Assembly (NCBI GenBank): GCA_002737275.1
Contig: NSIG01000026.1
Location: forward strand, 1-64,000
Origin: Opitutia bacterium
Lineage (GTDB): Bacteria; Verrucomicrobiota; Verrucomicrobiia; Opitutales; Opitutaceae
DNA length: 64,000 nt
Direction: 5' to 3'
The position numbers and the translations under genes are program-made. Below are positions 44,626-60,246 of this stretch, in pieces. Each line of letters starts with the position of its first letter. The first letter of the stretch is position 1. Below the pieces are notes generated by a model, which searched no databases, had not been told where the DNA came from, and saw nothing but the letters and a program-made list of their open reading frames with translations.

Positions 44626-46857
44626 TCACGCCACCGCCTCGACCGCTAGCCGCTTGCACTCCTTCAGGTCCAGTTTTCCCGTGCCGAGCACCGGGATCTT
44701 CTCGACCCGATGGGTCACGCGCGGCACCCAAAGCGCCGTGACTCCGGCGCCGAGCAGGCGTTCCCGCACCTCGGCGAGGGTAAAGTCCCTCGTCGCCAAC
44801 AAGACCAAGGTCTCGCCTTTGACCACATCCGGCACGCCCATGACAACCGCCACGTAAGCTTCACTTTGGTCGAGATCGAAAAGCTCCACGAGCTTTTGCT
44901 CGATCGTGCCGTGGGGCACCATCTCGCCGCCAATTTTGGAGAACCGAGACAGCCGGCCTTCAATGAAAAGAAATCCGTCGTCGTCGAACCGGCCCAAGTC
45001 TCCCGTCACAAACCAGCCGTCGCGAAACGCCGCCGCGGTTTTCTCAGGATCGTCTAAATATCCCTCAAAAATATTTGCCCCGCGAAAGAGCACCATACCG
45101 GTCTGACCGTGGGGCAATTCCTGCCAAGAATCCGGATCGACGACCCGCGTCGTCATACCCGGCATCATGCGGCCAACCGCTGCCTTTCGTTTGCCCAATT
45201 GCGGCTCGTTCGTCGAGAAAACCACCGGCGGGTGCGGCTGATTGAGGCTACAGGCCGGGGTCGCCTCGGTGAGGCCGTAGCCTTCCAGAATATCGAGGTG
45301 AAATTGCTCCAAAAACCCACGCGCGAGGTCGTCGGGCAACTTCTCGGCCCCGGTCACAACCAGATCAAGGGAACGCAATTCACCCGGTTTAGCCTTCTTC
45401 AAAATCGGCCGGATAAATGTCGGGGCTCCGATCAGCACGGTCGCCTTCTCATCCCGGATGGCATCGATGATCTTCCGCGTGTCGAGCGCGCTCGGCACCG
45501 TCACCACCCGGGTCCCGCGCAACAGGGGATACCACAGTGTAACGGTAAATCCGAAGCTATGAAACACCGGCAAGCAGGCCAACAACGTGCAACTCTCCGG
45601 CAAGATCGAGAGCGACGAAATCTGGTCGCAGTTGGCTAGAATGTTGCGGTGGGTAAGGACTACGCCTTTCGGCTCCCCCGAACTTCCGCTCGTAAACAGC
45701 AGGCCGGCCTCCTCGCGGTCGCCGACTTTGGGCAGGCCGAGCAAACCCGCGCACCATTGGTTCGGCAGCAGCCACGCCGCCAGCAGCCACGGGAGCATCG
45801 CGCGTTTTCCACCGCAGGCCAAAATCTCGGTCTTCAGATCGAGCGTACGCTCGGGAAAAGGAAAATTCGGAATTTTCGCCCGCATCGCATCGGCGCTGAT
45901 GACGGTGGCGATTTTCCCCAGCTTCAGACTCGCCTCAAGGCTGTCCCGAGACGTCGTGAAATTCAAATTCACGGGGATCTTGCCCGCCGTCAGCACCGCG
46001 AGATTCGCGATAAACGCTCCGGCTCCGGGTGGTAAAACGATCCCCACGCGCTTTTCGGCAATCGTAGTCTTGATCCGGCGCGAGAGGGCCGCCGCTGCTG
46101 CGTAGATTTGGGCGTTGGTCAGCTCACGCCGCTCCGCCGTACGATCAATCACCTGCAAATGCTGGGGATGCTTCGTCAGTGCCCGCACACACTCGCGCCC
46201 GAGGTGGCGCTTGAGCACGGGCCGTTCTTCAAACGCCAGTCGGCCCAAATCGAGCAACTCCCGGCGGGCCCAGCTTGGGTTCACCGCCGCCGCCGCCGTC
46301 GGATGTCCAAACGCGATGAACACCGGTGTCGGTAACAAGCGCGGCGACTTCCAAAGATATTTGTTGCCCGCAAACGAGAACACCGAGCCCCACAGCCCGT
46401 CGACCGCCGCGGCCACGACCGGCACCTCGGCCTGCCTCGCCATCATCTCAAATCCCCGCTGGATCGCCATCAACTGGCCCGTGCGGGAGATGTGGCCTTC
46501 CGGGCACACACAGACGACCTCACCCGCCTTCAAAGCCGCGATCGCCGCCTTAATTCCCTGCCGCGGCGCCTCGGGAGAAATCGCAATCGACCCGCTGAGC
46601 TCAAAAACCCAATTGAAAAAGCTGTTCCGCCTCAGTCCTTGATAGCCAACGAAACGAATCGGCCGAGGACAGGCCAATTGAAGAACCACGACATCCACAT
46701 AGGAAATGTGATTCGCGATGAGCAGCACGCCGCCCGAGGTCGGCAGGTTCTCCGCGCCGTTGGTGCGCACGCGATAGAGGAATCGGGCGACCGTGCTGGC
46801 GATAAATTCGATGAAAAACGGGAGATGCGATCGCCGGGGCAACAAGGGGTTTGTCAT
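44626..46857 (-). CDS. Bifunctional acyltransferase / acyl-(ACP or CoA) synthetase (Aas-like fusion)
   Basis: N-terminal HISYVD (HX4D), CPEGHISRTG acyltransferase; C-terminal AMP-binding LLFTSGSSGEPKGVVLTHRN, GYGLTEATPACS, FVTGDLGRFDDDGFLFIEGR. Confidence 0.93.
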   Translation of the reverse strand: MTNPLLPRRSHLPFFIEFIASTVARFLYRVRTNGAENLPTSGGVLLIANHISYVDVVVLQLACPRPIRFVGYQGLRRNSFFNWVFELSGSIAISPEAPRQGIKAAIAALKAGEVVCVCPEGHISRTGQLMAIQRGFEMMARQAEVPVVAAAVDGLWGSVFSFAGNKYLWKSPRLLPTPVFIAFGHPTAAAAVNPSWARRELLDLGRLAFEERPVLKRHLGRECVRALTKHPQHLQVIDRTAERRELTNAQIYAAAAALSRRIKTTIAEKRVGIVLPPGAGAFIANLAVLTAGKIPVNLNFTTSRDSLEASLKLGKIATVISADAMRAKIPNFPFPERTLDLKTEILACGGKRAMLPWLLAAWLLPNQWCAGLLGLPKVGDREEAGLLFTSGSSGEPKGVVLTHRNILANCDQISSLSILPESCTLLACLPVFHSFGFTVTLWYPLLRGTRVVTVPSALDTRKIIDAIRDEKATVLIGAPTFIRPILKKAKPGELRSLDLVVTGAEKLPDDLARGFLEQFHLDILEGYGLTEATPACSLNQPHPPVVFSTNEPQLGKRKAAVGRMMPGMTTRVVDPDSWQELPHGQTGMVLFRGANIFEGYLDDPEKTAAAFRDGWFVTGDLGRFDDDGFLFIEGRLSRFSKIGGEMVPHGTIEQKLVELFDLDQSEAYVAVVMGVPDVVKGETLVLLATRDFTLAEVRERLLGAGVTALWVPRVTHRVEKIPVLGTGKLDLKECKRLAVEAVA

Positions 46858-46895
46858 AAACGCGGTATCGATATGGCGAAGAATTTAGCTCGAGT

Positions 46896-47142
46896 TCAAA
46901 GCTTTTTGTCGCGCCCGGCCACATCCTCGCCGCCGTAATCGGAAATCAGATGCCGAAAACGGTGGTAGAGAAAACCGACCCAAAGCAGCACCAAGCCTTA
47001 GACGAAGAACGCCCCCGGTCCGATAAAGCGTAGAGCCGATATCGACGATGAATAAGCAGGGGATGCACCGTTTCAGGCCCGCCAATTCCGCCAACTGGGC
47101 GGCTCGCTCTCGATCGGCAAAGCGGTCGGAGAGTTTCTCTAG
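46896..47142 (-). pseudogene. Decayed gene, putative small membrane protein
   Basis: Minus frames read EKLSDRFADRERAAQLAELAGLKRC then (shifted) ALRFIGPGAFFV*GLVLLWVGFLYHRFRHLISDYGGEDVAGRDKKL*: protein-like across a frameshift and an in-frame TAA (46998-47000). Confidence 0.5.
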
Positions 47143-47213
47143 ATGAAAATTTAGTCAAAATCGCCGCGATTTCTATCGCTACCAGACTGCTTGGTCTGGC
47201 AACCGGTGATCCA

Positions 47214-47855
47214 TCAACTGATTTCTGGAATCGGTTCCTGCAAATCTCGCAGCAACGCCGCGAAGCCCGGAAAATCGTATTCGAGGCGTCGCAAATCCCT
47301 TCGGTGCCGCTCCGCCTCGCGGACCGCGCACGCGATCTCGTACGGCAGACTCGGCCGCTCCGTTCGGTAAACCTTCAGCTTCAACTCGGCCCGGGTGTAG
47401 GGCAGAATTCCCCGGGCTTGGCCTTCAGTCCAGGCCGCTTCGTTGACCGAATCTTCGACGCCGCACAGCAACCATGCTTCGAGGGCGGGAACCGCGACAC
47501 CCACGACCCTTCGCACGCGCAAGCGGCCATGCGCCGCCGGAAAGCGTTTGCTAGTCTGGCGGAAAACCGCGCGGAGTTGGCACATCCGGCAGTGAGGGTG
47601 ATAATATTGCGGCGCATCGTGCGCCGCCGTGTGCACCGGGCTGTCGTCGGAATCGCCCGTCACGACCAGGGTATCGACATCGGTGTTGAAATGGAGGTGC
47701 CGGATGACCGCTGGTAGAACCTGCAGGACATTGGGCCAACCCCGAGCGCGATATCCCGCCGAAGCCACCGTCGGCTGCTCTTTCAGAGCTCCCTCAACCA
47801 AGACCCGCAATACCGCCTCGTCCGCCGGCGACTCGCTGAGGAACGCTATCTTCAT
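47214..47855 (-). CDS. TOPRIM-like / DUF4276-like protein (putative nuclease partner of AAA ATPase)
   Basis: FLSESPADEAVLRVLVEG (Toprim-like acidic motif), LVVTGDSDDSP (DxD), VGVAVPALEAWLL; plus HPHCRMC cluster. 4-bp overlap with upstream ATPase gene. Confidence 0.65.
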   Translation of the reverse strand: MKIAFLSESPADEAVLRVLVEGALKEQPTVASAGYRARGWPNVLQVLPAVIRHLHFNTDVDTLVVTGDSDDSPVHTAAHDAPQYYHPHCRMCQLRAVFRQTSKRFPAAHGRLRVRRVVGVAVPALEAWLLCGVEDSVNEAAWTEGQARGILPYTRAELKLKVYRTERPSLPYEIACAVREAERHRRDLRRLEYDFPGFAALLRDLQEPIPEIS

Positions 47856-48892
47856 GACTCCTCCGGCACGCCGCCAAGGATGCCGCTGAACCAGATATCG
47901 CCCAGCGAGCCCTCCCGTAGGAGCTCCGCCAGATCGGCGCGATCGGCCAACCGCTCGAAGTGCGCCTCGTGGCCGTGCTTCTGCGTGATGACGATCTCTT
48001 CCGGGTGCTCGCGAAAGAGATCCAGCAGGTAGGGCGAGTGCGTCGTCGCGATCACCTGCACGGGAGCGCGCGTTTCGCCCATCGCCGCCGGATAACTCAG
48101 TCGATACAACGCGTCCCGCACCGCGCGCAACATCCGCGGATGAATCCCACGATCAATCTCCTCAATACACACGACCGCTGGCGGCGCCGGATCAAACGAA
48201 AGCACCAAAATCCCCAACACATAAAACACCCCTTGCGAGAGATTGTCCGCCATCACGGGCCCTTCCGCGTCGCCGATCTTCAGGCCCAGTCGCACCACCC
48301 CGCCGGCGTCCTCCGGCACCACGATGCCCGTGAACTCGGGCAACCATCGCGTCAGTTCGGCCTGCAACTGGTCAAACGCCGCCGGAGTTTCACGCTGCCA
48401 CCGGGCCAACACCGCCGCCAAATTCGAACCGTCTCCCGCGAGCCTTGCGCCCGATTCACGCGGGGCCGGCGCCGCCATCGCCGCGTGGTCGAAGACGTAG
48501 CTGCGCATCGTCGCCAACCCGACTTTCACTTCCTCCCAGTCGGCCCGGTTGACCGACTCCACCCGTAACAGATCGCACACCGCATCATCGACACACCCCA
48601 GGCGCGCAATGACTCCGAGATGAGGCGCATCGAACGCAAAGGAAATCTCCGAACCACCGGCGCGCGTCACCGTAGCCGGGTCGCCAAGCGGAAGCTTGGC
48701 CAAGGCACGCAGCTGTTGCAGCGCTTGGATGAGACTGGTCTTGCCGCTCCCATTCGCCCCGATCACGAGATTGAACGGCGATAGTCGCAGGCTCGTGTTG
48801 CGCAGGGCCTTGAAGTTTCGGAAAGCAACGGAAGCGATCACGCAGAAACGTGCACCATGTGACGCCTCGCCGCCAGCCCCGAGATTTGTCAC
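47852..48892 (-). CDS. AAA family ATPase (OLD/RecF-like, AAA_21 type)
   Basis: FRNFKALRNTSLRLSPFNLVIGANGSGKTSLIQAL Walker A, DNLSQGVFYVLGILVLSF, AVVCIEEIDRGIHPRML Walker B, VQVIATTHSPYLLDLF. Start may be an internal GTG. Confidence 0.88.
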   Translation of the reverse strand: MTNLGAGGEASHGARFCVIASVAFRNFKALRNTSLRLSPFNLVIGANGSGKTSLIQALQQLRALAKLPLGDPATVTRAGGSEISFAFDAPHLGVIARLGCVDDAVCDLLRVESVNRADWEEVKVGLATMRSYVFDHAAMAAPAPRESGARLAGDGSNLAAVLARWQRETPAAFDQLQAELTRWLPEFTGIVVPEDAGGVVRLGLKIGDAEGPVMADNLSQGVFYVLGILVLSFDPAPPAVVCIEEIDRGIHPRMLRAVRDALYRLSYPAAMGETRAPVQVIATTHSPYLLDLFREHPEEIVITQKHGHEAHFERLADRADLAELLREGSLGDIWFSGILGGVPEES

Positions 48893-48947: not shown

Positions 48948-50795
48948 ATGTCTCCCACTCGCCTCCTCCCTGCCCTACTGCTCTGCACCGGCGCGCTCGT
49001 CGCCCAGCCCGTGACCACCGTTACGGTCAACAACCAGACCTTCGTCAATCAAGGCCTTGTCGGTGTCGGTCGAATGCCCGCCGACCTCAGAGACAAATTC
49101 GGCGAGACCTTTGGCTCGTTCTCCGCCTTTACATTTCAACCCGGCTCCTGGCAGCGCAACGCCAATGGCTCCTACTCCGGCACGCTCTTCGCCCAACCCG
49201 ACCGCGGCTACAACGTCGCCGGCACGACCAACTATGTGCCGCGCTTTAACAAAATCACGGTCGCCTTCACCCCTGCGCCATCCGGCTCCACCGCGCAGAA
49301 TCAGGTCGCTCTCACGCTGGACGATACGATCAAATTCACCGAAAGCGACGGCACCCCGATGACGTCGCTCGATCCCACGTCGGCCGGCACCGGCACCCGG
49401 GCGGGACTCCCTACGATGCCTCAAGCTTTCAACGGCCGTCTGTCGCTCGACGCCGAGGGTATCGTCGTCAACGCCGACGGTTCGATCTGGGTGAGCGACG
49501 AATACGGTCCCTATATCTTCCGCTTTACGGCCGACGGCCGCCTTACCTCCGCCATTCGGCCACCCGAGGCGATCACACCCAAGCGCGGCGGAGCCTATTC
49601 GTTCGCCTCCAATAATCCCGGCCCCGGCCAAGCTGCCCCCGTGCCCGCCGATCCCACCACCGGCCGCCAAAACAACCAAGGTCTCGAAGGCCTCTCCGTC
49701 TCGCCCGACGGCCGCACCCTCTTCGCCCTGCTGCAATCCGCCGCGCGCCAAGATGGCGGCACCGGTGGCACCGGCCCACGTCGCCACACCCGCCTGCTCG
49801 CTTACGATCTCACCGTCGCAGGGAACCCCACCCTCAAAGGCGAATACGTTGTCGCGTTACCCACCTTCCTGCTCGGCACCGCGACCCGCGTGCCGGCGCA
49901 GAGCGAGATGCTCGCGATCAACAACACCCAATTCCTCGTGCTCGCGCGCGACGGCAACGGCCGCGGCGTCGCCAATCCCACTTCCCTTTATCGCTCGATC
50001 TTGGTCTACGACATCAGCAGCGCCACCGACATCGCTGGCACCGCCTACGACACGCCGACGACCCCAGTCGCACCCGGCGGAGTGCTTGCCGCCGGCATCG
50101 TGCCCGCCACCTCGGCAGTGCTCGTTGATCTGAACAACAACGCCCAGCTCGCGAAATTCGGCCTCAACAACGGCCCCGTGGACAACGTCAACACCCTGTC
50201 CGAAAAGTGGGAGGCCCTCGCGCTCGTCCCCGCCTTTGATCCCGGCGCACCCAACGATTGGTTTCTCTTCGTCGGCAACGACAACGACTTCATCACGACC
50301 AACGGTTTTCAAGACGGCGCGCCTTACGCCGCCGCCCTCGACAACGACAACATGGTGCTCGTCTACCGCGTCGCCATCCCAACGCGCCTCGCAAATGTCG
50401 CCAGCCGCGCCCTGACCGGCCCCGGCCAGAGCGCCCATGTGCTTGGCTTTGTCGTCAGCGGCGCCCGGCCCAAAGCGATGCTGGTCCGTGGCGTCGGCCC
50501 GGCGCTCACGCCGTTTGGTATCACCAACGCCCTGCCCGATCCTTCGCTCACGATCTTCAACGCTGCCGGCCAAGCCGTATTCACCAACAATGACTGGAGC
50601 GCATCGGTCGCCGGCGCCGCCACGGCCGCCGAACTTGCCACCGCCGCCACGCGAGCCGGCGCCTTCGCGCTCTCGGCCAATAGCCGCGATGCTGCGCTGC
50701 TCGTCCAACTTGATCCAGGTGCTTATACGGCCGTGGTCAGCGACGCGTCAGGCGCGACGGGCGTCAGCCTCGTCGAGGTTCATGAGGTGCCGTGA
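48948..50795 (+). CDS. Secreted esterase-like/phytase-family protein with C-terminal beta domain
   Basis: Signal peptide; DAEGIVVNADGSIWVSDEYGPYIFRFTADGRL, NQGLEGLSVSPDGRTLFALLQSA; C-terminal SAHVLGFVVSGARPKAMLVRGVGPALTPFGITNALPDPSLTIFNAAGQ. Confidence 0.85.
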   Translation: MSPTRLLPALLLCTGALVAQPVTTVTVNNQTFVNQGLVGVGRMPADLRDKFGETFGSFSAFTFQPGSWQRNANGSYSGTLFAQPDRGYNVAGTTNYVPRFNKITVAFTPAPSGSTAQNQVALTLDDTIKFTESDGTPMTSLDPTSAGTGTRAGLPTMPQAFNGRLSLDAEGIVVNADGSIWVSDEYGPYIFRFTADGRLTSAIRPPEAITPKRGGAYSFASNNPGPGQAAPVPADPTTGRQNNQGLEGLSVSPDGRTLFALLQSAARQDGGTGGTGPRRHTRLLAYDLTVAGNPTLKGEYVVALPTFLLGTATRVPAQSEMLAINNTQFLVLARDGNGRGVANPTSLYRSILVYDISSATDIAGTAYDTPTTPVAPGGVLAAGIVPATSAVLVDLNNNAQLAKFGLNNGPVDNVNTLSEKWEALALVPAFDPGAPNDWFLFVGNDNDFITTNGFQDGAPYAAALDNDNMVLVYRVAIPTRLANVASRALTGPGQSAHVLGFVVSGARPKAMLVRGVGPALTPFGITNALPDPSLTIFNAAGQAVFTNNDWSASVAGAATAAELATAATRAGAFALSANSRDAALLVQLDPGAYTAVVSDASGATGVSLVEVHEVP

Positions 50796-50835: not shown

Positions 50836-53800
50836 TTATTTGCCTCCGAGAAAGCGGTTCAGCAAGTCACCCGCGCCGCTCTTCTCGTAGGCTAACTTCA
50901 CGAGCGCCGATTGCAGCTCCGAGGTGTCCGGCTGGCCAAGCGAGCCGGTCACCCGCAAGGGCAGGTTGCTGCGAAAATAGCCGAGCTCATCCGGTTTTTC
51001 CGTTTCAAGGGCGGCGAGACTCTTAAGCAGTTTCCCCATCGTCCCGCGCGCCCCGAGCTTGAATTCCATCACGAGGGGCTGGGCGGCGAGTTCGAGCCCG
51101 ACCTTGGCGGCTATGCGGCCGGTACCCGCAAGCCGCAGCTCGGGCGCGATCAGCGTAAAATCCTTGAGCGTCAGGTTCAGCGCCGCGTCACGGGTGAACA
51201 CGACGTTGAGCTGATCATACTCAATCGCAGAGATCATTTTCGACAACGACGCCACCGCTTCGACTTTGCTCGCCGCATCGCTGATGTCCTTACGCCCCGT
51301 GAGCGCACCGGCCAAGTTACCGAGGGTCGCCAAGGTGGAGGCGGTTTTGGTCGTGGTCGCCACTTTCGAGGAGACGTCCGCCGCCAGGGCGCGAAACACG
51401 CCGCCCTTGCTCGTCAGCGCAAAATCACCCGCCGCACGTTGGCCGATTTCACCGAGATTGCGGGCGTTGCCCGTGACTTTGCTGGCGACGGTAAACTTTC
51501 CCTCCACCGTGGGCGGCTGGCCCGGATTCAGCGCTCGCAGAACCGGAGCCGGATCAAAATTGGTCACATCGAGATCAAGCGCGACGCCGTAAGGTTCCGG
51601 CGCGGTCGGCGTAAACGTGAGCCCGCCCTTCAGCTTGATTTCGCTGCCCTCGCCCAAACCGGCGCGCACGCCGACCAATTTGACCGCTCCGGCATCGATG
51701 CGGATCGTGCCGCCGATGTCGGCGACCTCAAATTTTTGAGCGTAAACGACTTTCTTGAGCGAAAGTGCGAGCTGCCCGCTCACCCCGCTCCAGACGGGTG
51801 CTGCGTCGCGACGGGCGGCCTGGGCCGCCGCAGCAGAATTTGCGGACGCCCCACCGGCAAACGGGGCCGCGAGGAGTTGGACGTCTTCGACGAAGACTTG
51901 GCTGCTCGTCAGTCGAGCGTCGATGGTCAGGCCGGCCGGCTTGGTCTGGAGCAGCGAACCGGCCAAAGTGAAATCGGATTGGCGGCCGTCGCGGGTGAGA
52001 AGCAGGGGCACGTTAAGGGCGATCTTGCCGTCAGCCCCGATGTCGGCGCGGACCTGAACGGAGATCGCCGGAATTTTTTCGCGACTGAGCTTCGGATCAG
52101 CCAGGAGGTCAGTGAGCGCGAGCGTGAGCTCGACCGAAGTCGCCGCTGCGACCGTGGCCACGAAACCACCCGACGCGTTACCGCTGACGATCCCCGCCAG
52201 GTTGGCCGCAGCGGGTTGGGCCAGAAGCGCGGGGAGACTGGAACTCCACTCGCCCGCCGTCTTGATCGGTTGATCCTTGCCCGTCAGTTGACCGGCCTTG
52301 GCTTTCAGCGCGAAGAGCTTGGTGCCGGCGCTTTGTACGGTGAGCGAAGTGACCTCGGCTTGCCAACCGGCTGGCGCGTAATCGGCCGACACATTTAACG
52401 CGAGATCGACCGCCTCCAACAGCGGTTCGCCGGCCTGCGCAAGCGTCAGCCCGCTGATCGAAAGCGGGACGCGGGGCCGGAGCGCCATGCCACCGTTGTT
52501 GGCCGTCGCTGCGAATTCACCTCGAAGATCACTGCCGGTGAGCGTAAGCCCCGGCAAAAACGGTTGTGCCCAAGCGAGCGGCAGTCCGTGCAGCGTGATC
52601 GCCACGAGTTCCCGTGCGGGATCGGCGACCTTCAGCTCGCCGGTCTTGGCGTTAAACTCGAAAGCTTGCAGAGACTGGATGGCCGCAACGGGTCGGGCGC
52701 CGGATAGTTCGGCCTTCAGTCGATCGATCCGAGTCGAGTCGCCACGTTGCGCGAGATCGAACTCCGCGAGCGCCCGGATCGCACCGATGGCGGCGAGCTC
52801 CGGCTTTAAAACCCCGAGCTGGTCAGCCTTCACGTCGAGCTGGCCGTGGGCGCGGATCTCGGCGAATGCGGTATCGGTCGAGAAGGTACCTTCGCCGGTG
52901 GCAGCAAACAGCGGGAGGGTGTGGCCCAAAGCAAACGGCGCGAGATCGGCCGAGCGCAGATCAATTTTCCACGAGCCGCCGAGGGTGCGGCTCGCGGCCG
53001 CAAGGTCGGCGGTGAGGGAGACAAGTGGTTGGGCTGGATTCGCGAACGTCAGGGTGTAGCTCTCACCACCGGGTGTGCGGGTGGCCGATATCACCGCGGA
53101 GAGAGTCACGCCCGCCGGAAACTGCGGTCCAACGGCCATCGCTTTTGGCTCAGCCGAAAAGCGGCTGAGCGTGCGGGCGGAATCCATCGTCACGACGAGC
53201 GTTGATTGCAGCATCACGTGGTTCATCGCAAAGTTTTCGCCGGTGAAAGAGGCGTTGAGGTCGAGTTTGAATCGCCCCTCTTGGCCGACGCCAAGACCGC
53301 CGCCCGCCAAGATCACCCGCGCCCGCGCGGCCGGTCCGCCGCCGGGCGCGGGCGGGAGAATCACTTCGCCTTCGAGATCTACGCCGTCCAACGCCAAATC
53401 GACCGGAAGCCGCAACTGCCCGAGCACGCCAGCAAACGCCCGCGCTACGGCCGCTTGATTTGCCGCGACCACCGAATTTGGCGTCGCAGGCAGCGGCGTC
53501 GCAGCTCCGCCGGGTGCTGGTGCGAGGTGGGTCGGAGACGTGCGCGCCGAGAGTGGCGCCGCGGTTTTGCTGAGATCAATGGTCCAACCTCGGGCGGTCA
53601 GTTTACCGACGCTTACTTTTTGCGAGAAACCTGCGGCGATGATCGGGAACTCGACCGACAGTGAAGGAACCGTCAGGACCGCGCCGTTGATCTCGGCGCG
53701 CAATGCTTTGACCTCGGCCCGGTCAAGTCCGATCGCAACGGACGCCCACGTCGCCTTTACCGACGGTTGGCCGGCAAGAATTTTTCTAGCGGCCCAAGTC

Positions 53801-53892
53801 TGCACCCCGGAATTGAAGGCGAGCCCGATAGTCACCAGCGTGAGGACCGTGGAGACACCGAGAGAAATTAGCAGGATACGAGCCGGCTTCAT
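50836..53892 (-). CDS. AsmA-like/DUF748-type large membrane-anchored protein
   Basis: Single N-terminal TM, ~1018 aa, repetitive beta-rich sequence, C-terminal LKDFTLIAPELRLAGTGRIAAKVGLELAAQPLVMEFKLGARG. Confidence 0.75.
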   Translation of the reverse strand: MKPARILLISLGVSTVLTLVTIGLAFNSGVQTWAARKILAGQPSVKATWASVAIGLDRAEVKALRAEINGAVLTVPSLSVEFPIIAAGFSQKVSVGKLTARGWTIDLSKTAAPLSARTSPTHLAPAPGGAATPLPATPNSVVAANQAAVARAFAGVLGQLRLPVDLALDGVDLEGEVILPPAPGGGPAARARVILAGGGLGVGQEGRFKLDLNASFTGENFAMNHVMLQSTLVVTMDSARTLSRFSAEPKAMAVGPQFPAGVTLSAVISATRTPGGESYTLTFANPAQPLVSLTADLAAASRTLGGSWKIDLRSADLAPFALGHTLPLFAATGEGTFSTDTAFAEIRAHGQLDVKADQLGVLKPELAAIGAIRALAEFDLAQRGDSTRIDRLKAELSGARPVAAIQSLQAFEFNAKTGELKVADPARELVAITLHGLPLAWAQPFLPGLTLTGSDLRGEFAATANNGGMALRPRVPLSISGLTLAQAGEPLLEAVDLALNVSADYAPAGWQAEVTSLTVQSAGTKLFALKAKAGQLTGKDQPIKTAGEWSSSLPALLAQPAAANLAGIVSGNASGGFVATVAAATSVELTLALTDLLADPKLSREKIPAISVQVRADIGADGKIALNVPLLLTRDGRQSDFTLAGSLLQTKPAGLTIDARLTSSQVFVEDVQLLAAPFAGGASANSAAAAQAARRDAAPVWSGVSGQLALSLKKVVYAQKFEVADIGGTIRIDAGAVKLVGVRAGLGEGSEIKLKGGLTFTPTAPEPYGVALDLDVTNFDPAPVLRALNPGQPPTVEGKFTVASKVTGNARNLGEIGQRAAGDFALTSKGGVFRALAADVSSKVATTTKTASTLATLGNLAGALTGRKDISDAASKVEAVASLSKMISAIEYDQLNVVFTRDAALNLTLKDFTLIAPELRLAGTGRIAAKVGLELAAQPLVMEFKLGARGTMGKLLKSLAALETEKPDELGYFRSNLPLRVTGSLGQPDTSELQSALVKLAYEKSGAGDLLNRFLGGK

Positions 53893-54031: not shown

Positions 54032-55354
54032 TTAGTTGGCCAACAGCGCATCGGGCAAACCGACGGCTTTGCGGACTTGGGCGACCGCGACATTGTAGCT
54101 GTAGAATGATTGAATTTGGTTGGTGCGGGCCGTGGTGAGATCGACCTGAGATTGAAGCACATCGAGCTGGGTCGCCGTGCCCGCACCATAGCGGGCATTG
54201 GCCAGCCGGAGACTTTCCTCGGCCTGCGCCACTACTTTCTGTGAGGCCTCGGCCAGCTCCGTGGCCTCTTGCAACGACGAGAGCGCACGGCGGACTTCAA
54301 CGTCGATCGCGAAGGACTGCTCGTTGAGCCCGAGGCGGGATTGCTCAACGGCTGAGCGGGCTTGGGCGACGCGGCCGTTGGTGGCAGCGCCGTCGAAGAT
54401 ATTCCACTGCGACTGCACGCCCACGAGCCAGCCGTCCCTGGAATCGCCCAAGGCATCGGTCGTGCCTTTGCGCAATTGCCAGCCGCCATAGGCGGAAACT
54501 CCTGGGTAGCGGTTGGCTTTCGCCGTCGTCACCGAGGTTTCTCGAGCGTCAACGAGCTTGGCGAGCCGGGCGAGTTCGGGGCGACTGGCACGCGCGGCGT
54601 CGAGTGAGGCCTGAAGCTCAAACGTCACGGGGACAAAATCGAGCGTGCCGGCAAACTCCGGGACCTTGCGGAGCGTTTCGGAGGTGCTGGTGACAAAGCC
54701 GAGCGCTTGGCGCAGCGCCTCGATCGCGAGGCGGTGGGTGTTGCGCGCGGTGATGAGCGGCACTTGGGCGTTCGCGAGAGCGACCTCGGCGCGAAGTTTC
54801 TCGAAGGCCGAAACGGCGCCGGCGTCAAAGCGGTCGGTGGCGTTCTTGAGCTGCTGGCGGAGCAATTCGGCGTTGGACTCCTGGACCTTGATTTTCTCCT
54901 TGGCCAAAAGGATGTCGTAGAATTTAACCCGGACATTGAGGAGCGCGTCGTTGATCACGGCTTTGAGTTCGAGGAGGGCAGCCTCGCGGGAGAGCTCCGA
55001 GCTCTTGACCGCCGAGCGGACGCCGCCGCCGGAGAAGAGCGTCTGGCTCGCAGTGATGCTGAGATTCCACGCGCGATCAGAAGTCGGAAAGGTCTGGGAC
55101 AGCGTCTCGTCGTTGAGCTGATAGCTGCCGGCGGCTGAGACGTTGGGAATGGCGCGGGCCCTCACTTCGACGACGACGCCCTCCTGTTGCTTGATGCGCT
55201 CACGCGCTTGGCGAATTGAGAAGTTATTTTCGACGGCGAAGCGCAACGCCGTCGGGAGGTCGAGCGTCTCGGGGATACCCTGCATCGGAGCCGGCTGGGC
55301 CGAAACCAATGCGGTCGCAAATAACAGAGTGGTGATAGAACGGAGCGTTTTCAT
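54032..55354 (-). CDS. TolC family outer membrane protein
   Basis: ALRFAVENNFSIRQARERIKQQEGVVVEVRARAIPNVSAAGSY; ARYGAGTATQLDVLQSQVDLTTARTNQIQSFYSYNVA. Confidence 0.93.
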   Translation of the reverse strand: MKTLRSITTLLFATALVSAQPAPMQGIPETLDLPTALRFAVENNFSIRQARERIKQQEGVVVEVRARAIPNVSAAGSYQLNDETLSQTFPTSDRAWNLSITASQTLFSGGGVRSAVKSSELSREAALLELKAVINDALLNVRVKFYDILLAKEKIKVQESNAELLRQQLKNATDRFDAGAVSAFEKLRAEVALANAQVPLITARNTHRLAIEALRQALGFVTSTSETLRKVPEFAGTLDFVPVTFELQASLDAARASRPELARLAKLVDARETSVTTAKANRYPGVSAYGGWQLRKGTTDALGDSRDGWLVGVQSQWNIFDGAATNGRVAQARSAVEQSRLGLNEQSFAIDVEVRRALSSLQEATELAEASQKVVAQAEESLRLANARYGAGTATQLDVLQSQVDLTTARTNQIQSFYSYNVAVAQVRKAVGLPDALLAN

Positions 55355-55366
55355 AGCTACAGAAGA

Positions 55367-58300
55367 TTAGTTCGCGTGAACCGGAGTGGCCGCAACCTCG
55401 GGAGCGTGAATGCGCTCCTTGGCGCGGTCGCGGGCGATTAACATGTAAAAGGCTGGCACCACGTAGAGGGTGAAGACCGTGCCGACCGCCATCCCCACGA
55501 CCAGCACCCAGCCGATGCTGTTACGGGCCGCCGCACCGGGGCCCGTCACGAAAATCAGCATAAGGTGACCGAAAACGGTCGCCGCCGATGTCATCAACAC
55601 CGGGCGAAGACGGGTGGCCGCGGCCCGGCGAATCGCGACAATCTTAGCGACCCCTTCTGCTTGCAGGCCGTTGGCAAACTCAACGATGAGAATGCCGTTC
55701 TTCGCGATCAAGCCGACGAGGGTGATCAGACCGATCTGCGAGTAGATGTTGAGCGTAGTTTTCCAAAGGAAGATCGGCAACATTGCCCCGACGATCGCGA
55801 GCGGCACCGACCCGAGCAAAATAATGAAAGGATCGCGGAAGCTGTTAAATTGGGCCGCGAGCACGAGGAAGATGAGCAGGCCTGCCATCGCGAACGCCTT
55901 CCACAGGGCATCGCCCTCGGTGCGGAGTTGCCGCGACTGCCCACCATAGTCGATCGAGTAACCGGACGGGAGAATTTCGGCGGCCTTGGCCTCGAGCTTC
56001 TTGAGTGCGAGGTCGATGCTCGGACCGACCCCGGTGATCTTGACGGCGTTGAGCTGCTGAAACCGGTTCAGCGTGCGCGGCTGCACGGTGTGGTTGAGGG
56101 TGGCCAAAGTATCGAGACTGACCAGTTGGCCGTTGGGTCCACGCAGCTGATAGTCGAGCAATTGCTCGGCGTTGAGTCGCTCTCCGCGCTCGACCTGGGG
56201 TATCACCCGGTAACTGCGGCCATCGTTGACGAAACGATTCGCGTAGCCGCCACCCAACATGGAACCGAGATCGCGGGCCACGTCGGTGAGATTTAGGCCC
56301 ATCGAGGCAACCTTGTCCTTGTCGATCTCGACCGAAACCTGGGGTAGGTCGAACTTAAGATCGCTGTCGGCGAAATAGAACGTCGGGGCTGCGTTGGGGG
56401 CGTTGGCTTCCGTATTGGCGTAGAGGACCAACTGGTCGGCATACTCCATCATTTCTTTGTGGTCCGCCGTGGAGCGCAGGACGAATTCAATCGGGAATTG
56501 ACCGCCGGCCGGCAACGGCTCGGGTGTGGTCACGATGACATTCATGCCGACGATGGAGGCCGCCGGCCCCTGCAGGGATTCCTGAATTTGAATCGAGGAA
56601 CGCGTGCGTTCCGACCAAGGCTTCAAGATTACGCCCGAGAAACCGAAATTGGCGCCGGTAATCTGGAACGAGTTCTCATACTCAGGGAAACTGGTGAACA
56701 TTTTCTGCACCTCTCCCGCAAACATCACGTTTTGATCGATCGTCGAAGTGGGCGATGGCAGCAAAATACTGAAGACCACGCCTTGGTCCTCCTTTGGCGC
56801 GAGTTCACGTTGGGCGAACATCAGAAACGGAACGAGCAAGAGCGTGAGCAAAATCGCCGCAGTGATAGTCACAGGCACCCAGCCGAGACTCGCGCCGATC
56901 ATCCGTTCGTAGCGATCGCGCACCCGCTCAAACAGCCGGTTGATCGCGCCGCCCAACCCGCCCTGATGGCCCGAGGCTTGGGGTTTCAATAAATAAGCGC
57001 TCATCATCGGCGAGAGCGTGAGGGCGACGAAACCCGAGACGGTCACCGCGCCGGCGAGGGTCATCGCAAACTCGCGGAAGAGTGCCCCCGTCAAACCGCC
57101 TTGGAACGCGATCGGCGCGTAAACGGCAGCGAGCGTGATCGTCATGGAGATAACGGGACCGACGAGCTCGCGGGCACCGAGGATCGCCGCGTCCACCGGA
57201 GACTTCCCTTCGGCGATGTGGCGCTCGATATTTTCAACGACGACGATCGCGTCGTCGACGACGATCCCGACCGCCAAAACGATCGCGAGGAGCGTGAGCA
57301 GGTTGATCGAAAACCCAAACGCATGCATGAGCGCCATCGCACCGACCAACGAAAGCGGCATGGCGACGATCGGAATCAACACCGAGCGGAACGAACCCAT
57401 GAACAGGAAAATCACGATCATCACAATGATCAGCGTCTCGATCAGCGTCGTAAGAATCTCCTTCAACGCGTCGTCGATGTATTTGCTGGCGTCGTACGCG
57501 ATCTTAACGTTCAGACCGGCCGGCAGGGCGCGCTCGATCTCGGGCACGACGGCGCGGACGCTTTTGATCACTTCAACCGTGCTGTCGGTCGGCAAGACCC
57601 AGATGCCCATGAACGTCGCGGCCTGGCCGCCGAACCGGACCTCCGTGTTGTAGTCTTCGGCACCGAGCACGACCTCGGCGATGTCGGAGAGGCGGATGAT
57701 CGTGCCGTTACGCTCAGCGACGACGAGTTTCTTGAAGTCGTCCACATTCTTGAGGTCGGTGTTGGCGACGAGGCTCATGCTGAGCATCGAGCCTTTGGTC
57801 GAACCGACCGCGGCGAGCGCGTTGTTATTTTGCAGGGCGACGCGGACCTCGGCCGGGCTGATACCACGGGCGGCAAGTTCGGCCGGCTTCAACCAGACGC
57901 GCATCGCGAATACCCGGCCGCCGAGCACGTCGGCGCGTTGCACGCCTTTGACCGAGGAGAGCCTTGGCTGCACCATGCGGTTCAAATAATCGGTGATCTG
58001 GTTCTGATCGAGCGTGTCAGAGTAGAAACTCAGGTAAGCGGAGGCGAATTGGCTGTCGGCGGTCTCGACGTTGATCGTCGGCGTCTCGGCTCCCGCAGGC
58101 AGTTCGCTGCGGACCTGGTTGATCTTGGCGCTGACCTGGGCCAGCGCCGCGTTGGTGTCGTAGTTGAGCCGGAGAAAAACTTTGATCGTGCTGATGCCGG
58201 CGCCGCTCGTGGATTCGATGTAGTCGATGCCATCGGCGCTGGAGATGACGCGCTCAAGCTGCGTGGTGATGTAGCCGCGCACGGTATCAGCGCTGGCACC

Positions 58301-58465
58301 GTAGTAGATCGTGGTGACATTGACCACCGCGCTGTCGCTGCGCGGATACTGGCGGGTGTTCAGCTTGGTGTAGGCGGCGATGCCGATGACTAAGATGACA
58401 ATGTTCACCACCAGCGCGATGACCGGCTTGCGGATGAACAGATCGGTGAAACTTTTGTTAAGCAT
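55367..58465 (-). CDS. Efflux RND transporter permease (AcrB/MexB-like)
   Basis: LFIRKPVIALVVNIVILVIGIAAYTKLNTRQYP, AIVLAVGIVVDDAIVVVENIERH, GLIAKNGILIVEFAN. Confidence 0.96.
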   Translation of the reverse strand: MLNKSFTDLFIRKPVIALVVNIVILVIGIAAYTKLNTRQYPRSDSAVVNVTTIYYGASADTVRGYITTQLERVISSADGIDYIESTSGAGISTIKVFLRLNYDTNAALAQVSAKINQVRSELPAGAETPTINVETADSQFASAYLSFYSDTLDQNQITDYLNRMVQPRLSSVKGVQRADVLGGRVFAMRVWLKPAELAARGISPAEVRVALQNNNALAAVGSTKGSMLSMSLVANTDLKNVDDFKKLVVAERNGTIIRLSDIAEVVLGAEDYNTEVRFGGQAATFMGIWVLPTDSTVEVIKSVRAVVPEIERALPAGLNVKIAYDASKYIDDALKEILTTLIETLIIVMIVIFLFMGSFRSVLIPIVAMPLSLVGAMALMHAFGFSINLLTLLAIVLAVGIVVDDAIVVVENIERHIAEGKSPVDAAILGARELVGPVISMTITLAAVYAPIAFQGGLTGALFREFAMTLAGAVTVSGFVALTLSPMMSAYLLKPQASGHQGGLGGAINRLFERVRDRYERMIGASLGWVPVTITAAILLTLLLVPFLMFAQRELAPKEDQGVVFSILLPSPTSTIDQNVMFAGEVQKMFTSFPEYENSFQITGANFGFSGVILKPWSERTRSSIQIQESLQGPAASIVGMNVIVTTPEPLPAGGQFPIEFVLRSTADHKEMMEYADQLVLYANTEANAPNAAPTFYFADSDLKFDLPQVSVEIDKDKVASMGLNLTDVARDLGSMLGGGYANRFVNDGRSYRVIPQVERGERLNAEQLLDYQLRGPNGQLVSLDTLATLNHTVQPRTLNRFQQLNAVKITGVGPSIDLALKKLEAKAAEILPSGYSIDYGGQSRQLRTEGDALWKAFAMAGLLIFLVLAAQFNSFRDPFIILLGSVPLAIVGAMLPIFLWKTTLNIYSQIGLITLVGLIAKNGILIVEFANGLQAEGVAKIVAIRRAAATRLRPVLMTSAATVFGHLMLIFVTGPGAAARNSIGWVLVVGMAVGTVFTLYVVPAFYMLIARDRAKERIHAPEVAATPVHAN

Positions 58466-58493
58466 GACGGGGAGGCGAGAGAACGGACGCCGA

Positions 58494-59612
58494 TCAGGTG
58501 TTGGCGGGCTTCGGCGTCGCGGAGGCGGAGGGCTGGGCCGCGTTATTGACCTGCACATGTGAGCCGTTGCGAAGTTTGAAAACTCCCGCAGAGACGACCT
58601 GCTCGCCGGGCTTGACCCCGCCCTCGATGGCCACGAGGTCACCGCGAGTAGCGCCGAGCTTCACGACCTGTTGACGCACCCCGAGATACTCTTTTCCGCC
58701 GGCGTCTTTCATTTTCTCGATCACGTAAACGGAGTTTCCGTAGGGAGCGTAGGCGATGGCCGTGGCCGGCAACACGACTTGCGGCTCCCCCACCGGCAGC
58801 TCGACCTCGACTTGGACAAACATGCCGGAACGCAGGCGTTCGCCGGGATTGGCCAGAAGAGCCTGCACCCCGATATTGCGTGTGCTCGGATCGACCTCGG
58901 AGTTGATCGCCACGACTTTGCCGGGGTAAGGAGCCGGGAAGGAATCAACCTTGGCCATCACGTTCTGGCCGACGCTGAGCGAGGCAAGGTGGCGCTGCGG
59001 AATCGTGAAATTCACATAGATCGGATCGAGCTTCTGCAGCGGAACTAGCAGGCGCCCACGCGCGACGTGTTGACCGAGGTTGACCTGCCGGATGCCGACG
59101 CGGCCGTCGAACGGAGCGCGGATGAACTTCCGTTCGATCGAGGCCTTCAACGCCGCCACATCGGCATTGGACTGGGCGAGCTGGGCCGCCGCCGTATCGA
59201 ACTCGGCTTTGCTGATCGTGTTCTTGGAAATTAGCTCGGCGGTGCGTTCGCTTTGGATTTTCGCCAGCGCCGCGCGCGCCTCCAGCGAGACGAGCTGGGC
59301 CGCCTCGACGGTGGTATCGATTTCAAAAAGCAAATCGCCTGCCTTGACCGAAGTTCCGTTTTCGGTCGCAACCCGGACGATGATACCCTCGGCGTCCGCG
59401 GCGATCGTGACACCCTCCACCGGGGCGAGCGTTCCGATGATGCCGATGACCGGTTGCCAAGCCACGGCCTTCGCCTCGTAGGAGCTCACCGAGCTTGGCG
59501 GTTGCTCGTGCGACATCCCGGACTTGGCTTTGATCTGGGAAACTTTGACCGCACCCAGGGCGAGCGCGACGACGGCGAAGCCGCCAATGGCGATGATGAA
59601 TTTCTTAATCAT
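58494..59612 (-). CDS. Efflux RND transporter periplasmic adaptor subunit
   Basis: VKAGDLLFEIDTTVEAAQLVSLEARAALAKIQ, IRAPFDGRVGIRQVNLGQHVARG. Confidence 0.94.
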   Translation of the reverse strand: MIKKFIIAIGGFAVVALALGAVKVSQIKAKSGMSHEQPPSSVSSYEAKAVAWQPVIGIIGTLAPVEGVTIAADAEGIIVRVATENGTSVKAGDLLFEIDTTVEAAQLVSLEARAALAKIQSERTAELISKNTISKAEFDTAAAQLAQSNADVAALKASIERKFIRAPFDGRVGIRQVNLGQHVARGRLLVPLQKLDPIYVNFTIPQRHLASLSVGQNVMAKVDSFPAPYPGKVVAINSEVDPSTRNIGVQALLANPGERLRSGMFVQVEVELPVGEPQVVLPATAIAYAPYGNSVYVIEKMKDAGGKEYLGVRQQVVKLGATRGDLVAIEGGVKPGEQVVSAGVFKLRNGSHVQVNNAAQPSASATPKPANT

Positions 59613-59652
59613 AATAAATAGGAGTCGATTGAAGGGAGTTGGGTAAGTTGGC

Positions 59653-60246
59653 TCAGCAGATGACAGGCGGACCGCGCGCCGGCTCGGTTGCCGGGACGGA
59701 AATCTCACTCGCATTTTCGAGGACCTTAGTCAGCAAACGAACGAGCGTCTTTCGCTCGCTCTCCGAGAGTGGGGCCATGATCCGCGTCATCAGTTTAAAG
59801 TGGTCTGGTAAGATACCGACCAGAAAACGCTCGGCTTTCCCGGTGAGCAGCACCGACATCATTCGTCGGTCCGTCGGATTTGGTTCACGGCGAACGAATC
59901 CGTCCCGTTCGAGGGTATCAATCAGCCCCGTCATCGTGGCCCGGGCCACACCCGCCGCATCGGCTAATTCGGCCGGCGTTCGCGGACCGTTCGAACAATC
60001 GCCGCCGCCGTGGGCCGCGTCAATCCGGCGTTGAGCCGGATTCCACAGCAGCATCAGCACGCCAAAGCGGCCATGGGAGATGCCGCGCACTGCGAGATCG
60101 TTCTCTACCAGGGAAAACACCTCGTCGCTCGTCCGCAGCAAATGCAAAAACGCCTCGCAGGCCGAGGGATCCAAATCAGGAAATTCCTTAGCCCCTTCCA
60201 GCAGACACTCGTAGCGCGGCAAGTCCTTTAATAACAGGAGCGGCAT
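59653..60246 (-). CDS. MarR family transcriptional regulator
   Basis: RTPAELADAAGVARATMTGLIDTLERDGFVRREPNPTDRRMMSVLLTGKAE. Confidence 0.92.
   Translation of the reverse strand: MPLLLLKDLPRYECLLEGAKEFPDLDPSACEAFLHLLRTSDEVFSLVENDLAVRGISHGRFGVLMLLWNPAQRRIDAAHGGGDCSNGPRTPAELADAAGVARATMTGLIDTLERDGFVRREPNPTDRRMMSVLLTGKAERFLVGILPDHFKLMTRIMAPLSESERKTLVRLLTKVLENASEISVPATEPARGPPVIC

Follow-up and report, generated by a model that had tools for sequence, protein, structure and literature searches.

A family-resident, split OLD-like ATPase/TOPRIM-like gene pair related to HEC-01 in Opitutaceae

Is an OLD-type ATPase gene with a TOPRIM-like partner, a combination that defence finders label as immune by resemblance, a mobile anti-phage cassette or a resident part of the genome that carries it? 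The question is raised by two adjacent genes, here called A and B, in the window, which is the whole 64,000-nucleotide stretch of Opitutaceae DNA that was analysed. The pair was found to behave as a resident family gene: it is present in a single copy, mostly at the same site, is under purifying selection, has its own promoter and has been lost cleanly. Our verdict is that it is a split pair of OLD-like ATPase and TOPRIM-like genes that is related to HEC-01 and resident in the family. The Opitutaceae, of which cultured members exist, thus offer a testable case for asking whether machines of defence type are co-opted for housekeeping or retained as built-in immunity.

A preliminary description of this DNA had reported a minus-strand ATPase and a 213-aa partner, and both genes lie where it had placed them, with GANGSGKTS, CIEEIDRGIHP and ATTHSPYLLD in A and ESPADE, VVTGDSDD and VPALEAWLL in B (Table 1). 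The reported 4-bp overlap is likewise seen, as ATGA. The start of A, however, had to be moved. It had been set at 48892, the first position of a 346-aa open reading frame, whereas homology in the relatives begins at residue 17–18 of that frame, equivalent to the GTG at 48841. As the conserved promoter is also anchored at this codon, GTG 48841 is the true start and 48842–48892 is non-coding. Gene A lies directly upstream of B in all 41 loci compared, with the −4 overlap in 22 of them and a largest A–B gap of 253 bp, and the ATGA arrangement may couple the translation of the two genes. That both are real genes follows from the co-occurrence of A with B in 97 of the 98 B-bearing family genomes, motifs that are invariant across ∼40 relatives and a dN/dS of ∼0.1. 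Their G+C content (0.639 for A, 0.628 for B) and third-position G+C (0.767 and 0.720, respectively) are equal to those of their neighbours.

Table 1. Positions of the gene pair, its sequence features and its surroundings in the window.
Feature	Position	Strand	Description
Aas-type acyltransferase/AMP-ligase	44626..46857	-	Downstream locus marker
Gene B	47214..47855	-	TOPRIM-like protein, 213 aa; SESPADE, D68/D70/D71, PAxEAWxLCG, RARGWP; putative TOPRIM fold
Zn-ligand-like segment of B	47579..47633	-	Residues 75–92, H75-x3-H79-x6-H86-P-x-C89-R-x-C92, after DxDD
A stop/B start overlap	47852..47855	-	4 bp, ATGA
Gene A	47852..48841	-	OLD/Rad50-type ABC ATPase, 329 aa from GTG at 48841
Gene A motifs			Walker A GANGSGKTS; SQG signature; CIEEIDRGIHPR Walker B/D-loop region; TTHSP
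Gene A C-terminus			Conserved LGDxWxSGxLGGxP
Core promoter of A	48842..48876	-	+1 = G of GTG; family consensus TTG at -35..-33, A-11, T-7, C-1
AsmA-like protein	50836..53892	-	1018 aa; upstream locus marker; putative name, no Pfam match
Operon ahead of AsmA-like gene	TolC 54032-55354; AcrB 55367-58642; HlyD 58494-59714		HlyD-AcrB-TolC RND-efflux

Gene A is an OLD/Rad50-type ABC ATPase, on the combined strength of its profile, motif, fold-model and PDB-sequence matches. It matches the Pfam families AAA_21 (5.5e-25) and AAA_15 (2.9e-18), and its best PADLOC match is HEC-01A (2.4e-38, 130 bits), with the best non-HEC family 30 bits below; PDC-M07A, AriA (3.2e-26), mad3 (6e-18) and PtuA (3e-13) follow. 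Invariant across 40 relatives, in the numbering of the 346-aa frame, are the Walker A residues G45 and G48-S49-G50-K51, the signature residues S219/G221, E244, R248-G249-x-H251-P252-R253 and T283-H285-S286-P287. The AlphaFold model (pLDDT 90.7) matches PtuA (from Septu and retron Ec78), Rad50 and SMC heads at E ∼1e-12, and the top match in a profile search of PDB sequences was an OLD-family nuclease (7.5e-11).

The partner had been described as TOPRIM/DUF4276-like. The first half of that label stands, on invariant residues and weak profile matches with no significant fold match, while the second does not, as B has no Pfam match and its profile-profile comparison with DUF4276 (PF14103) by hhalign gave an E of 0.22. 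Nor did B have a significant match among PDB sequences. Its AlphaFold model is confident (pLDDT 88.9), but searching this fold against PDB and viral libraries yielded no hit at E ≤ 0.001; the TOPRIM domain of the Xanthomonas OLD protein XccOLD (6njv) ranked third, below significance (E 0.09, TM 0.32). Across ∼41 relatives, E8, D12 and E13 within SESPADE, R36-A-R-G-W-P41, D68, D70, D71, P87, R90, P123, A124, E126 and W128 are invariant.

It is with the PADLOC family HEC-01B that B can best be compared. The window's B matches it weakly (0.0038, over residues 1–76), as do 11 of 23 B relatives (best 9e-6), and the HEC-01B model PDLC04202 found no match in the genomes of Opitutaceae at 1e-3. B and the HEC-01B relatives nonetheless align over their full length, with a pairwise hhalign E of 1.2e-4 but a probability of 55%. 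These relatives, from other Verrucomicrobiota, have in common one early Glu, a DxD and an ExW, mostly behind an ATPase-like gene, and their invariant residues align with E8, D68, D70 and E126-x-W128 of B. By this alignment, E8, D68 and D70 would be the catalytic Glu and DxD of a TOPRIM domain, and B is probably a divergent TOPRIM nuclease. Between its DxDD and ExW, B also carries H75, H79, H86, C89 and C92, each kept in at least 97.5% of 41 homologues and absent as a set from the HEC-01B relatives aligned; the arrangement looks like a zinc loop. At eight loci of other Verrucomicrobiota, a HEC-01B-like or DUF4276-like gene immediately follows one that resembles an ATPase gene, and these look like ordinary, sporadic versions of the same design.

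The resemblance to defence families noted in the preliminary description was borne out (the best-matching family is HEC-01A in the case of A and HEC-01B in that of B), as was the general design that it had proposed, of an OLD/ABC-type ATPase with a TOPRIM-like partner. Of the named systems, the PADLOC candidate HEC-01 is the closest relative, clearly so for A and weakly for B. Both consist of two adjacent genes with the ATPase first, and the alignment of B with HEC-01B relatives runs from end to end and shows the E, DxD and ExW in both. The Opitutaceae pair differs, however, in the extra Cys/His loop of B and in its mostly vertical inheritance at one locus. Furthermore, the HEC candidates were originally found inside Hma defence clusters (PMC12988326, PMC11411939), whereas this pair lies outside Hma or other recognised defence clusters, as judged from a non-exhaustive scan of its flanks with defence models. 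With its OLD/Rad50-type ABC ATPase domain in A and invariant E8 and D68/D70 in B, the pair resembles a split OLD of class 4, such as PARIS (AriA/AriB), which likewise has separate ATPase and TOPRIM genes and whose AriA profile A matches. It is not PARIS, as B has no AriB/DUF4435 profile match and the pair's locus is not on a mobile element. Gabija requires a fused ATPase-TOPRIM protein, GajA, and a UvrD-like GajB, whereas here the genes are separate and no such helicase adjoins them. The ATPase head fold modelled for A is that of PtuA from Septu and retrons; Septu was rejected because the partner is the TOPRIM-like B rather than the HNH protein PtuB, with no HNH found, and no retron was recognised. 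As for MADS, A matches mad3 and 2 of 23 B relatives match mad4 (best 0.0076), but A scores 81 against NCBIfam MAD3, for which the cut-off is 420, and no scanned neighbour resembles another MADS gene.

The distribution of the pair is that of a family gene. B was found in 98 of 150 Opitutaceae genomes (80 of the 119 good genomes, 36 of 49 genera), always in single copy, and comparison of the two lists showed a strongly scoring A in 97 of these genomes and in none without B. The B profile matched 28 of 37 family genomes versus 0 of ∼351 genomes of other Verrucomicrobiota. In a profile search of public contigs, the best 80 of 164 relatives were nearly all titled Opitutaceae/Opitutae/Opitutus or Verrucomicrobia, and the titles among the matches listed included the Opitutaceae genera Opitutus, Lacunisphaera, Ereboglobus, Didemnitutus and Cephaloticoccus; given this scope, remoter relatives may exist in other phyla. 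No match to the pair was found in phages, plasmids or IMG/VR viral contigs. Its absence from about one third of family genomes shows that the pair is dispensable.

The locus is largely fixed as well. Of 41 loci, 34 have the Aas gene directly downstream of the pair and in the same orientation, and 21 have the AsmA-like gene upstream, again in the same orientation; five loci, of which two lie on short contigs, are without the usual neighbours. The non-exhaustive scan recognised no defence genes among the flanks, which hold efflux, lipid, transporter and membrane genes instead. In relatives that do not carry the pair, eight genomes among them, AsmA and Aas are adjacent, often ∼70–630 bp apart, and no remnant of A or B was detected at the empty sites at E 0.01; in some other pairless relatives a different gene occupies the gap.

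Inheritance was assessed on an rpoB tree of 48 genomes, with an all-absent basal group of eight as the outgroup. Presence and absence of the pair require eight changes on this tree. Although change counts alone do not separate gain from loss, together with the all-absent outgroup they are read as one gain and seven losses, and the best reading is a single ancient acquisition near the base of the main Opitutaceae clade followed by ∼7 losses. Forcing the A+B alignment onto the rpoB topology cost 168 lnL, versus 1330–1680 for random trees, and the corresponding costs for Aas were 452 and ∼2450. Both A+B and Aas have 8 of 24 splits in common with rpoB (chance for A+B, 0.2), and the A and B trees have only 7 of 24 in common with each other. 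The strict rpoB topology was rejected for A+B and likewise for Aas, which leaves room for some exchange between family members, but the pair is inherited at least as vertically as the gene beside it. Purifying selection on A and B is similar to that on neighbouring genes, with dN/dS values against the nearest relative of 0.115 for A, 0.087 for B, 0.133 for Aas and 0.151 for a DEAD helicase.

Gene A is also preceded by a conserved promoter pattern. When 40 loci were anchored at its start codon, GTG was found in 37, T-35 in 25, G-33 in 27, A-11 in 28, T-7 in 36 and C-1 in 32; the copy in the window fits the consensus in part, at T-34, G-33, T-7 and C-1 only. The combined pattern is absent at the starts of B, Aas, AsmA and TolC. 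Because its spacing is sigma70-like when the G of the GTG is taken as +1, a leaderless mRNA is predicted, and the pattern points to transcription of A from a sigma70-like promoter kept family-wide. A LexA-type box has the form TGTTC-N4-GAACA, and no site of this kind stands out upstream of A, which speaks weakly against LexA control.

On this evidence we favour, with modest confidence, the reading that the pair is a two-subunit OLD-type machine and a resident family module, most likely employed in nucleic-acid surveillance as built-in immunity. In the mechanism that we propose, an ABC ATPase dimer of A would sense or hold nucleic acid, and the ATP-bound dimer would engage B and either restrain or activate its metal-dependent cleavage. 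B would be a metal-dependent, TOPRIM-like nuclease that carries a zinc-binding loop in addition. The two would be transcribed from their own promoter, presumably as a leaderless mRNA, and the target of such innate immunity could be phage or plasmid DNA or RNA. Among bacteria, those OLD-type proteins that have been characterised act as defence effectors (PMC10568477, PMC12839542). In Corynebacterium, MksBEFG pairs an SMC-like ATPase with a nuclease of the TOPRIM type and protects the cell from plasmids (PMC10123090). Together with the repeated losses of the pair, these precedents make resident immunity likelier than a maintenance function, although not by much.

A genome-maintenance module, in which an OLD-type ATPase/TOPRIM pair has been turned to DNA repair, replication nicking or chromosome processing, is a serious rival, if a less probable one, because the vertical pattern seen here is the same that led to Cran1. 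Cran1 is a vertically inherited archaeal OLD clade (class 5) with a role in the cell cycle, first recognised by its conservation pattern (PMC12796447), and its likeness to the pair, as an OLD-type machine following the species tree in one lineage, argues against ordinary defence. The mostly vertical inheritance, neighbour-like purifying selection, conserved promoter and lack of recognised defence neighbours all agree with maintenance, as does retention of the pair in the reduced 2.1–2.4 Mb genomes identified here with Cephaloticoccus. Against it, the ∼7 clean losses mean that the pair is non-essential, the closest sequence families are defence or candidate defence families, and no LexA-type box stands out. 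Cran1 itself differs in being fused, archaeal and refractory to deletion, whereas the Opitutaceae pair is split, bacterial and repeatedly lost. We raise only tentatively the idea that the pair is a split bacterial counterpart of Cran1, one that left the arms race and became a lineage-specific genome-maintenance machine whose TOPRIM has a zinc loop and whose leaderless promoter is retained family-wide.

Within the preferred reading of resident immunity, a special case, whose probability overlaps with that of defence in general, is a toxin-antitoxin-like abortive pair, in which A would restrain B and B, once triggered, would cut host tRNA as in AriA/AriB. AriB is a TOPRIM two-metal endoribonuclease that is dead as an E26A mutant (PMC12409363); E8 of B would correspond to E26, and the early Glu and DxD of B to those of AriB, while A matches the AriA profile as given above. 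We consider this version rather unlikely, given that B has no AriB/DUF4435 match and carries the conserved extra Cys/His loop, and that nothing here points to an RNA target.

The weakest reading, a mobile anti-phage cassette recently inserted, has in its favour the resemblance of its components to HEC-01, PARIS and mad3/mad4 and the differing extra genes at the AsmA/Aas junction, but is very improbable, since the pair is single-copy at one locus in most of the family, is as concordant with rpoB as Aas, has no foreign composition and was not found in phages, plasmids or viral contigs; the fixed locus, together with the comparison of trees, rules out recent mobility. The preliminary description had taken the pair for a mobile accessory insertion, and had named conservation at one family locus without defence neighbours as what would speak against a defence-type system; the pair proved to be conserved through the family, in most cases at a single locus surrounded by efflux and lipid genes, without recognised defence neighbours. 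Before a match to a candidate profile, HEC-01A for example, is scored as mobile defence, the inheritance of the genes should be checked.

The "gene debris" beside the pair, previously read as a sign of insertion, lies in the B–Aas spacer, which measures 360 bp here and 358 and 354 bp in two same-genus relatives; this similarity means that the spacer is no evidence of recent insertion. The spacer (46858–47213) has a lower G+C of 0.537 and contains two overlapping minus-strand open reading frames of ∼70 aa in different frames. The AsmA/Aas junction (48948–50795 in the window) holds phytase-like, ABC transporter, EF-G or MarR-DUF2157-GDYXXLXY genes depending on the genome, with or without A and B, and this variety of extra genes indicates a site permissive for inserts.
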